Part shown: positions 3,683 through 7,333 of the stretch, one piece after another
Position numbering within the stretch: position 1 is the stretch's first letter
Layout: every line of letters starts with the position of its first letter
Source of the DNA: Dethiosulfovibrio faecalis
GTDB taxonomy: Bacteria; Synergistota; Synergistia; Synergistales; Dethiosulfovibrionaceae
Length of the DNA: 57,415 bases
Direction of reading: 5' to 3'
Assembly (NCBI RefSeq): GCF_021568795.1
Contig: NZ_JAKGUE010000005.1
Location: 79,089 to 136,503, forward strand
Made by a program: the position numbers and the translations under genes
The notes under the pieces: model-generated
What the model saw: the letters and a program-made list of their open reading frames with translations, nothing else
The model's database searches: none
What the model was told of the DNA's origin: nothing

Positions 3683-4168
3683 ATGAAGGGAAACAGAAAG
3701 ACCAACGCCGTCAGGGAACTGGAGAGGCTGGGGATCTCCGTAGAACTCCTGGAATACGAGGTGGACGAGGAAGACCTCAGCGCCGTAGCCGCGGCGAGCA
3801 AGGTGAGCTTACCGATCGAGAGGATATTCAAGACCCTGGTGGCCCGGGGAGACGACCCCAAGAGGGACATCGTGATGGCCTGTATCCCCGGAGCCTCGGA
3901 GCTGGACCTGAAAAAACTGGCCGCGCTGAGCGGAAACAAGAGGATGGAGATGGTCCACCTGAAGGAGCTGCTGCCTCTGACGGGCTACGTGCGAGGAGGC
4001 TGCTCCCCGGTAGGTGCGAAGAAAGGCTACCCGGTCTACCTGGACGAGAGCGCCGTAGGACACGAGACAGTGGCGATAAGCGCCGGTCAGAGGGGGCTTC
4101 AGATGATACTGTCCCCGGAGGACCTGATAAGGGCCACCGACGCCACGGTGGGGAGGATCACCAGATGA
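3683..4168 (+). CDS. ybaK: YbaK/EbsC-type aminoacyl-tRNA deacylase
   Basis: A 161-residue single-domain protein of the YbaK/ProX editing family, which hydrolyses mischarged Cys-tRNA(Pro) (YbaK) in trans. The core features are present: an early lysine in ERIFKTLV, the [14 protein letters not shown] segment, and the [17 protein letters not shown] loop typical of YbaK. Full length. It starts 49 bases after the IclR gene and its stop overlaps the start of the next gene by four bases (ATGA), so it is co-transcribed with the polysaccharide deacetylase. No functional tie between those two is evident. Confidence 0.88.
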
Positions 4169-4944: not shown

Positions 4945-5007
4945 ATTACCCTCTTTTCCACGACTCGTTTAAGTGCTATCATGTTTGACAATAAAATATG
5001 CGACCCT

Positions 5008-5113
5008 GTTCCCATCACCGGATGGGAACTTTAAAGGCGTTCATGGTTTTGCCGTAGGTACGGCACACCGACAGGTGTGCTACAAGGCAGGCCGTGAACG
5101 CCTTTTTGTTTTA
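5008..5113 (+). ncRNA. Structured leader RNA with terminator-like closing stem
   Basis: The 200-base gap before the aminotransferase gene holds two units. The first is a perfect hairpin, GTTCCCATC-ACCG-GATGGGAAC (5008-5029). The second is an 11-bp closing stem, GGCGTTCATGG (5036-5046) with CCGTGAACGCC (5092-5102), enclosing two small hairpins: GCCGT-AGGT-ACGGC and CACACC-GACA-GGTGTG. A T-rich run, TTTTTGTTTT, follows directly at 5103. The outer stem plus T-run would act as an intrinsic terminator about 32 bases upstream of the gene, so this is a candidate riboswitch or attenuator. I could not match it to a named riboswitch class. Confidence 0.6.
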
Positions 5114-5144
5114 GGGTCCGAGAAACCACGAAGGAGGAGTTTAC

Positions 5145-6311
5145 GTGAAAATCGAGCCTTTCAAGGTGGAAGAATGGATGAACGCCTACGAGGTCGGAGC
5201 GAAGTACAACATCGCCGAGACCTGCGTCGATTCCATATCGATCGACGAGCTATTCGAGCTGGTCGGGGAGGACAAAGCGTCCTTTCTGGACGCTCTTTGC
5301 TCCAGACGCTTGACCTACGGAGACATAGAGGGAGCCGCACCTTTCCGCGAAGGGGTATGTCGGCTCTACAGGAGCCTCGAGCCACAAAACGTGGTCCCCA
5401 CCCACGGGGCGGCGGGGGCCAACCACCACGTCTTCTACTCACTTCTCGAGGCAGGAGACGAGGTAGTAAGCATAATGCCGACCTACCAGCAGCTCTACTC
5501 CATTCCGGAATCCTTCGGAGTGAGGACGAAGCTTCTGAACTTAAAAGAGGAGGACGGCTATCTGCCGGACCTGAAGAAACTCGGCAACTTGGTCACGTCG
5601 AAAACGAAGATGATCTGCCTCAACAACCCGAACAACCCTACGGGATCTCTCATGGACCTCGATACCCTGAGGAAAATAGTCGAGATAGCCCGTTCGGCCG
5701 ACGCCTACATTCTGTGCGACGAGGTATATCGCCATCTGACCCAGGAGGATGGATGGAACGAGTCCATAGCCGATCTATACGAAAAGGGAATATCGGTCTC
5801 CAGCATGAGCAAGGTCTTCTCCCTGGCCGGGTTGAGACTGGGCTGGATAGCTACCACCGACTCGGAGGCTATAGGGAAACTTCTCTCCCACCGAGACTAT
5901 ACCCTGATCAGCTGCGGCCTACTGGACGAGGCCCTGGCGGGAGTCGCCCTGAGACAGGGAGACAGACTACTCGACCGAAACCGGAGTATAGTTCGTCGAA
6001 ACCTCAGGATACTGGACGAATGGGTTCAAAGACAGCCGCACGTCCGATACGTCAGGCCCAAAGCCGGGACGACCGCCCTGGTCCATTACGATCTGGACAT
6101 GGAAAGCTACGACTTTTGCCGTGAGATGTACCATGATACCGGAGCCTTCGTCACTCCAGGTGACTGTTTCGAGATGGGACGCTGCATGCGTATAGGCTAC
6201 GGCTCCGACACGGAGACCCTGATGGATGGCCTGGCGGCAATAGACAGATACATAGCCCACAAGGTCGAAGCGGAAACGGACAAACTGAATGAACAGGAGG
6301 GAACTCTATGA
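5145..6311 (+). CDS. Fold-type I PLP aminotransferase
   Basis: A 388-residue class I/II aminotransferase. PLP-binding lysine K223 sits in SMSKVFSLAGLRLGW, and NNPNNPTG and the CDEVYRH aspartate/tyrosine motif are present. Length and motif order match aspartate/tyrosine-type aminotransferases of the AspC/AlaA superfamily. The start ATG-like codon is GTG at 5145 with AGGAGG seven bases upstream. It overlaps the next gene, an ornithine cyclodeaminase-family protein, by four bases, so the two form an operon controlled by the structured leader. Substrate is not identifiable from sequence; the pairing suggests metabolism of an amino acid or its imino derivative. Confidence 0.88.
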   Translation: MKIEPFKVEEWMNAYEVGAKYNIAETCVDSISIDELFELVGEDKASFLDALCSRRLTYGDIEGAAPFREGVCRLYRSLEPQNVVPTHGAAGANHHVFYSLLEAGDEVVSIMPTYQQLYSIPESFGVRTKLLNLKEEDGYLPDLKKLGNLVTSKTKMICLNNPNNPTGSLMDLDTLRKIVEIARSADAYILCDEVYRHLTQEDGWNESIADLYEKGISVSSMSKVFSLAGLRLGWIATTDSEAIGKLLSHRDYTLISCGLLDEALAGVALRQGDRLLDRNRSIVRRNLRILDEWVQRQPHVRYVRPKAGTTALVHYDLDMESYDFCREMYHDTGAFVTPGDCFEMGRCMRIGYGSDTETLMDGLAAIDRYIAHKVEAETDKLNEQEGTL

Positions 6312-7333
6312 GCGAAATCCGCATACTGAGCCGATCGAACATAGCTCATCTGCTCGCCCTTTCGGAGGTGATCGAGGCGGTGGAAAGAGCCTACGTCCAA
6401 AAGTCGACGGGGAAAGGATCCCTGTGGCCGATGGTTTTCCACGAGTTTCAGTCCGGTCGTGCCGATCTGGACATAAAATCGGGAGACCTGGGCGAAGAGG
6501 GAATCTTCGGCTTCAAGTTGGTTTCCTGGTTCGGAGACAACCGCGACAAGGGGCTTCCAGAGCTTTTCGGAACCGCAATGATCTTCGACATAACCTCGGG
6601 AAAACCAAAGGCCCTTCTGGACGCCGGGGCTATGACCCATCTCAGGACGGGAGCAGCGGGAGCCATAGGTGCAAAATACCTCGCCCGCCCCGACTCGAAG
6701 AATCTCCTGATGGTCGGGACGGGAGGGCTGGCTCCCTTCGAGATAGCGGCGACCCTGTCGGTATTACCGGACATTGAGAACGTCTGGATTTCCAATCCCA
6801 GGAATCCCAGACGGGCCATCGACAGGATCGACTCCATAAAAGAGAAGGTTCGCTCTATCTTGGCGGACTCCGGCACCGGAGACCATGGTGCCCGGATTTC
6901 CGTCGCTGACGACCTGAAAGAAGCCGTCGTAAAAAGTGACGTCATAGTGACTGCGACTCCCTCGACCAAGCCGATTATTCGGGCCGAATGGATAACCCCG
7001 GGAACCCATCTCAGCTGCATGGGCTCCGATATGAGCGGAAAACAGGAGCTGGAATCGTCGCTCTTTCGGAGGGCGAAGGTAGTCGTGGACGACGTGGAAC
7101 AGTGCTTGGCGGTTGGGGAATGCGAGATACCGACGAAAGAGAACATCTTCTCGAGGAACTCCATTCACTGCGAGATCGGGGAGATAATAGGAGGCCTAAA
7201 ACCGGGCCGCACCGATCGGGAGGAGATAACCCTTTTCGACTCGACCGGCATAGCCCTACAGGATCTGGCCTGTGCCGCTCTGGCTCTAGCGAAAGCCGAA
7301 GAGAGAAAAATGGGAACGGTGGTCGAGCTCTAA
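6308..7333 (+). CDS. Ornithine cyclodeaminase / mu-crystallin family protein
   Basis: A 341-residue NAD(P)-dependent enzyme of the OCD/mu-crystallin family, which includes ornithine cyclodeaminase, alanine dehydrogenase, ketimine reductases and opine-type dehydrogenases. Visible: the family start (LSRSNIAHLLAL), the substrate-binding K/T region around KLVSWFGDN, a Rossmann glycine motif MVGTGGLAPFEI (about 139-150), and VIVTATPSTKPI followed by GTHLSCMGSDMSGKQEL. The late AxxDxxEQC (DDVEQCLAVGE) segment is also typical. It starts within the aminotransferase stop codon. The two enzymes probably handle the same or linked substrates; which member of the family this is cannot be decided here. Confidence 0.87.
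   Translation: MSEIRILSRSNIAHLLALSEVIEAVERAYVQKSTGKGSLWPMVFHEFQSGRADLDIKSGDLGEEGIFGFKLVSWFGDNRDKGLPELFGTAMIFDITSGKPKALLDAGAMTHLRTGAAGAIGAKYLARPDSKNLLMVGTGGLAPFEIAATLSVLPDIENVWISNPRNPRRAIDRIDSIKEKVRSILADSGTGDHGARISVADDLKEAVVKSDVIVTATPSTKPIIRAEWITPGTHLSCMGSDMSGKQELESSLFRRAKVVVDDVEQCLAVGECEIPTKENIFSRNSIHCEIGEIIGGLKPGRTDREEITLFDSTGIALQDLACAALALAKAEERKMGTVVEL

Follow-up and report, generated by a model that had tools for sequence, protein, structure and literature searches.

A candidate Gd4v-class riboswitch with a predicted antiterminator strand ahead of an aminotransferase operon in Dethiosulfovibrio faecalis

The Gd4v motif is a variant of the guanidine-IV riboswitch and an orphan ON-switch candidate, composed of two hairpins, a pseudoknot and a Rho-independent terminator (Lenkeit et al. 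2022, PMC9788692). According to the text of that paper, more than half of its examples precede the transaminase PRK07324, COG2423 genes often lie in shared operons, and one of the RNAs that were probed came from Cloacibacillus, likewise a synergistote. The same text states that the D1 position is always G in guanidine-IV and never G in Gd4v, and that the D2 hairpin is always present with PRK07324. The assays it describes yielded neither a ligand nor a full-length product for Gd4v; the 95 Csp RNA bound guanidine above 1 mM, and guanidine binding by Gd4v is given as weak and without switching of expression. Guanidine-IV itself is an ON switch whereby guanidine promotes the kissing loop and lowers termination, and the model in the published text is a steric one, without strand exchange (Lenkeit 2020; 2024 single-molecule study). 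No later paper mentioning the Gd4v riboswitch was found in the literature searched. Published sequences number about 395 for Gd4v and 1,262 for guanidine-IV.

Two other systems bear comparison with the locus described here. By literature comparison, guanidine-II (mini-ykkC) RNAs also hold their ligand between two kissing hairpin loops, but they differ in sequence, lack the terminator overlap and have other loops, which are ACGR. The aspC motif (SRC-45-1, PMC11109978) is likewise a candidate riboswitch ahead of a putative aminotransferase; by its description it forms a junction of three stems and conserves very few nucleotides, whereas the loops of our leader are nearly invariant.

A Gd4v leader ahead of an aminotransferase operon

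The window, that is, the whole stretch of D. faecalis DNA analysed (57,415 nucleotides), contains a structured leader directly 5′ of an aminotransferase gene and an ornithine cyclodeaminase (OCD)/mu-crystallin gene. Its features are as follows.

4955–4982, + strand: promoter-like site TTTCCA-16-TATCAT with TG ahead of the second hexamer; weak, a consensus match only (consensus scan, 9/12 matches, 0.2 expected)
4993–5007, + strand: P0 5′ strand, the predicted antiterminator, AAAAUAUG-C-GACCCU; pairs with 5035–5050 in the pre-termination transcript (predicted, with family-wide complementarity)
5008–5029, + strand: P1 hairpin, nine perfect pairs, loop ACCG at 5017–5020 (sequence and fold; double-sided compensatory changes in 7/8 aligned pairs)
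5017–5019, + strand: kissing-loop strand ACC in the P1 loop (invariant together with GGU in 35 aligned leaders)
5033–5105, + strand: P2 terminator hairpin, 5033–5048 with 5090–5105, inner pairs 5051–5053/5086–5088 (energy fold; double-sided changes in 14/16 modelled pairs)
5057–5059, + strand: kissing-loop partner GGU in the P2 internal loop (invariant in the 35 leaders of alignment A1)
5063–5080, + strand: D2 (top) hairpin, 5063–5069 with 5074–5080 (double-sided changes in 6/7 pairs)
5083, + strand: putative D1 position, C (A1 column 81: U 27, C 8; pyrimidine in 35/35 leaders; G in guanidine-IV controls)
5103–5112, + strand: U-rich tail UUUUUGUUUU of the intrinsic terminator (sequence)
5113–5118, + strand: AGGGUC, enclosing helix with GACCCU at 5002–5007 (predicted to form with probability 1.0 in a transcript ending at 5118)
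5145–6311, + strand: regulated gene 1, PLP-dependent aminotransferase-fold enzyme of the PRK07324 family (NCBIfam NF005593, 519 bits, cutoff 476)
6308–7333, + strand: regulated gene 2, OCD/mu-crystallin family, COG2423-type (PF02423, 223 bits)

The NCBIfam model nearest to the OCD protein is archaeal alanine dehydrogenase, below cutoff. The promoter-like site would, as weak evidence, give a transcript start near 4990. A whole-genome copy search found the leader element as a single copy belonging to no repeat family. A YbaK-type tRNA-editing gene lies at 3683–4168, two genes upstream of the element, and another YbaK-type gene (L176:1664–2215) is found directly 3′ of a degenerate Gd4v-like element in locus L176; this proximity may be chance, and editing proteins also occur in guanidine-riboswitch regulons.

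The leader has two hairpins joined by a loop–loop pseudoknot, its 3′ hairpin is a predicted Rho-independent terminator, D1 is C, a D2 hairpin sits on top, and PRK07324 and COG2423-type genes lie downstream. From the pseudoknot, terminator, D1, D2 and gene context we assign it to the Gd4v motif, a class already published. P1, the kissing loop, the terminator with its internal loop, D2, the non-G D1 and the PRK07324 plus COG2423 context are all shared with the motif as PMC9788692 describes it; what differs is the new Dethiosulfovibrio copies and the P0 antiterminator, of which the text of that paper makes no mention, though the published Gd4v and guanidine-IV consensus figures might already draw it. 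D1 was placed at 5083 from the papers' text, the mutant numbering given in PMC7736828 and the guanidine-IV control loci.

It is improbable that the leader belongs to guanidine-IV proper, with guanidine as its signal and a role in guanidine stress. The two RNAs (guanidine-IV also being known as mepA or GGAM-1) share the overall two-hairpin architecture, the ACC/GGU kissing loop and the terminator ON-switch, and the millimolar guanidine binding of 95 Csp is in keeping with such a reading. However, guanidine-IV has G at D1 and exporter genes such as sugE or mepA downstream, and the D2 hairpin is absent from guanidine-IV control loci L148, L151, L180 and L182–L185, whereas our leader has C, D2 and the PRK07324/OCD operon. 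Guanidine is also, by the published binding and expression results, at best a weak ligand of Gd4v.

The earlier note on this DNA had matched the leader to no known class. Rfam 15 indeed gave no match at the gathering threshold in the window or in nine homologue and guanidine-IV loci, and only chance matches to the window leader at E-value thresholds; yet to call the RNA unrecognised was wrong, given the Gd4v publication. Because Rfam 15 also misses the guanidine-IV control loci, a check against it alone would make the leader look novel.

Fold, covariation and kissing loop

The 4980–5130 segment folds at −72.5 kcal/mol compared to −40.9 ± 4.2 kcal/mol in 200 shuffles (z = −7.5, 0/200 as good). 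Relatives were collected by a protein search with the aminotransferase, which yielded 80 loci, and 35 leaders were aligned (A1), with 34 pairs scored, kissing pairs included. Double-sided changes occur in 27 of these pairs. In A1, 96.3% of cells are paired, versus 84% in shuffled and ~29–43% in slid controls, and 179 cells carry double-sided changes versus 50 ± 8 in shuffles. In light of this covariation relative to the controls, we conclude that the leader RNA is real and its structure under selection. The Rfam search and the compensatory changes in homologues that the earlier note had put forward as decisive thus came out as no match and abundant changes, respectively, as for a real RNA, and its view of a structured, conserved and probably ligand-responsive leader agrees with both the shuffles and the covariation, the response to ligand being predicted. 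The covariance model scores the window element at 104 bits (E = 6e-22), the window sequence being included in the model. Weak matches of the model in two Acetobacterium loci (L144, L145) were discarded as, by eye, unrelated terminator-like repeats.

The perfect nine-pair hairpin and the long stem that ends in a T-run (5103–5107) and doubles as terminator, directly before the two genes, had both been recognised previously. By contrast, the three-way junction proposed in the same place is ruled out by covariation in A1: the 31 homologue-supported pairs make one terminator hairpin, which is interrupted by an internal loop and capped by a second hairpin. Homologues support P2 pairs 5036–5048 with 5090–5102, while an A-U foot (5033–5035/5103–5105) lies below them, the UUUUU run at 5103–5107 closing the 3′ side of the long hairpin. 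The strands of the internal loop are a nearly invariant GUAGGUACGG and, facing it, UAYAAGG. The first pair of the inner GCC/GGC helix covaries (GC 17, AU 5, UA 5, CG 1), which indicates that the partner of GCC lies across the internal loop and is not the local ACGGC. An alternative internal pairing of GGU (columns 55–81, 56–80 and 57–79) appears in RNAalifold and energy folds, with variation limited to G-U/G-C at one pair.

In three loci the kissing loop has changed on both sides, from ACC/GGU to GCC/GGC: L103, from Spirochaetales and ahead of the same aminotransferase; L183, of guanidine-IV type with a MATE gene; and L165, ahead of an SMR-like exporter. These double changes are natural compensatory variation that supports the predicted ACC/GGU kissing interaction. 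The L165 element (~1500–1611) combines the GCCG/AGGC kissing variant with a D2-like hairpin, and its SMR-type (SugE-like) exporter is 105 residues long.

The same alignment bears on two other readings of the leader. Leader-peptide attenuation, which the earlier note had raised as a means of switching, or a T-box-like tRNA-sensing leader is very improbable. The terminator does overlap a structured leader before amino-acid genes, and short reading frames exist on paper, but there is no Rfam T-box match, homologues differ by 1- and 2-nucleotide indels throughout their linkers and loops, and the loop nucleotides are invariant across phyla. It is barely credible that the element does no more than terminate the upstream polysaccharide-deacetylase gene, strongly but without any part in regulation. 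Its distance from the stop of that gene is ~60 nucleotides, and it does carry a U-run; however, conservation across phyla follows the downstream gene and not the upstream one, a promoter-like site lies in between, and the loop nucleotides are, again, invariant.

A predicted antiterminator strand, P0

The element is predicted to start further 5′ than 5008, as the leader from about 4993 carries the putative antiterminator strand. Across the family, the strand just 5′ of P1 is complementary to the foot of the terminator 5′ strand, as in CCUU/AAGG, GCUU/AAGC, CGCUU/AAGCG, CACUU/AAGUG, UGCUU/AAGCA and ACACC/GGUGU. Among 64 elements, a non-redundant set, complementarity of each flank to its own foot sums to 234 compared to 205.1 ± 6.3 when flanks are swapped (z = 4.6, 0/20,000 permutations as high), a comparison in which swapping does not fully model relatedness. 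The signal persists when the set is limited to Gd4v elements (z = 4.5) and when identity is capped at 70% (z = 3.4, p = 0.00085), and guanidine-IV controls L183 and L185 also show flank/foot complementarity. Control segments taken from the inner strand of the terminator, from its 3′ strand and from upstream gave no such signal. Several definitions of a thermodynamic P0 measure were tried: a first, cruder one was not significant (0.507 vs 0.463 ± 0.041), while a redefined one, which takes the first six nucleotides of the terminator and averages their pairing with the flank in the partition function, gave 0.30 vs 0.21 ± 0.02 for swapped and 0.16 ± 0.02 for shuffled flanks. P0 has five pairs in L056 and L159, and is missing or very weak in L068, L076, L083, L180 and L184.

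For the window RNA, the energy model gives the CCU/AGG core a pairing probability of 0.90–0.94 in transcripts ending at 5088–5092 and of 0 at 5103. The Watson–Crick core with family support is CCU 5005–5007/AGG 5035–5037 only, the longer helix being one energy prediction. Since the flank/foot complementarity is family-wide and the window P0 is predicted to persist until the terminator completes, we propose P0 as an antiterminator, a role that we infer for it in vivo. The enclosing six-pair helix 5002–5007/5113–5118, for which the other Dethiosulfovibrio copies have AGGGUU, can form only after read-through past the terminator; pairing of this kind with post-terminator sequence has no firm family-wide support (z = 1.5–1.9). 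Similar complementarity was seen by eye in L055, L059, L061 and L081.

We consider it likely that the leader is a Gd4v-class riboswitch that turns the aminotransferase/OCD operon ON at transcription termination, with P0 as the antiterminator and a toxic basic or guanidino compound as ligand. That it turns ON, that ligand drives the kissing loop and that control lies at the terminator are taken from the guanidine-IV literature and are probable in Gd4v, an orphan class. As RNA polymerase passes, P1 would form and be extended by P0, made of the 5′ flank and the foot of the future terminator 5′ strand. With ligand present, the ACC of the P1 loop would kiss the GGU of the internal loop, the ligand being held between both loops, and this P1/P0 arrangement would keep the terminator foot captured so that transcription continues. 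With ligand absent, the growing 3′ strand would displace P0, P2 and the U-run would be completed and transcription would stop.

Whether Gd4v and guanidine-IV RNAs in general switch by P0 as a conventional antiterminator, with strand exchange and not merely steric strain, we regard as evenly poised. A Gd4v RNA that switches by steric exclusion only, the kissing loop stretching the linker and so keeping the outer pairs of the terminator from closing, with no exchange of strands, is possible, if somewhat doubtful. This is the model that Lenkeit 2020 and the 2024 single-molecule study set out in their text for guanidine-IV, and the elements that lack P0 favor it. Against it, the flank 5′ of P1 tracks the terminator foot (the z = 4.6 above) while other segments do not; moreover, a joint action of P0 and the kissing loop is conceivable, such that the two models compete solely over strand exchange.

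Relatives, regulon and candidate ligands

In other Dethiosulfovibrio the leader before the same gene is 85–87% identical over the aligned stretch (leader DNA compared by BLASTN), and more distant homologues precede this gene in Oscillospiraceae, Lachnospiraceae and other gut Clostridia. The element was found in 6/188 Synergistota genomes, from three genera. Its rarity in Synergistota and its distribution in Clostridia suggest horizontal transfer.

Several relatives depart from the common form. In another Dethiosulfovibrio species (L035; G003 contig 2, 6688–6839) the leader is intact while an in-frame deletion has reduced the operon to a 123-residue reading frame, in which ~70 N-terminal residues of the aminotransferase run straight into the ~53 C-terminal residues of the OCD protein; here the switch outlives its operon. 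The L169 element (~1500–1602), directly ahead of a PRK08912-like aminotransferase alone, is a hybrid with D2 present but D1 as G. Upstream of 547–583 in L114, a Gd4v-like leader before PRK07324 has no D2 and an A near D1, an exception to the rule stated in the text of PMC9788692. Before PRK07324 in L062, L078, L084, L153 and L163, AGGUAAUACG or AGGUAUUCC replaces AGGUACGGC and the top hairpin is kept; this sub-variant could differ in ligand or affinity.

Gd4v-type elements are followed by PRK07324 and then by either an OCD-family gene or a second, PRK08912-like aminotransferase (e.g., L059, L063, L070, L073, L091). Argininosuccinate lyase comes last in three Gd4v operons (L051:3065–4495, L080:3654–5063, L082:6199–7608; TIGR00838 above cutoff for L051 and L080). 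Behind other Gd4v-type elements are GNAT acetyltransferases (L146, L156, L157, L170, L172, L174, L177–L179), half-size EamA transporters (L146, L159–L161, L166), MATE proteins (L168, L171, L173) and a LysO-type lysine exporter (L162), some of these downstream genes being assigned solely by sequence likeness to a scanned member. The amino-acid theme already read from the two genes behind the leader stands, and the wider regulon appears to break down, acetylate and export an amino acid of basic or guanidino type. This suggests as ligand a toxic amino acid of that type, or a derivative of one, that the operon would degrade, and argininosuccinate lyase is a clue to an arginine-like compound. Ornithine, proline and glycine, the candidates named earlier, have no specific support; from the relatives, guanidino or basic amino acids are the better candidates.

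By family score, PRK07324 comes closest, among characterised enzymes, to gamma-hydroxyarginine cyclase GntC and to capreomycidine synthase. Compared to the arginine cyclases GntC/VioD, the aminotransferase keeps E9, D186, Y189, the PLP lysine K219, R227 and R346 but has N52 changed to Y, T84 to A and H250 to I. We rejected a GntC-type arginine cyclase function, the PLP and carboxylate residues being kept and the guanidinium/gamma-OH pocket (T84, N52, H250) lost; PRK07324 is predicted to lie in the same subfamily neighbourhood as GntC/VioD with a different substrate pocket. Gamma-hydroxyarginine is a legume guanidino amino acid of lentil and Vicia (PMC11854323). Such compounds as the ligand would fit the gut enrichment, though this is a guess and a long shot.

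Gd4v is one of the orphan riboswitch classes that remain, and it is common in gut bacteria. The Dethiosulfovibrio leader, with its intact two-gene operon and predicted strong antiterminator, is a convenient test RNA, and the wider regulon of argininosuccinate lyase, a second aminotransferase and LysO and EamA exporters helps to focus the search for the ligand towards toxic basic or guanidino amino acids. Probing and transcription constructs without the 5′ flank may miss a ligand response. P0 is a new mechanistic lead that may apply to the whole Gd4v class and, if true, P0 strand exchange would take the place of steric exclusion, the published model, in both Gd4v and guanidine-IV.
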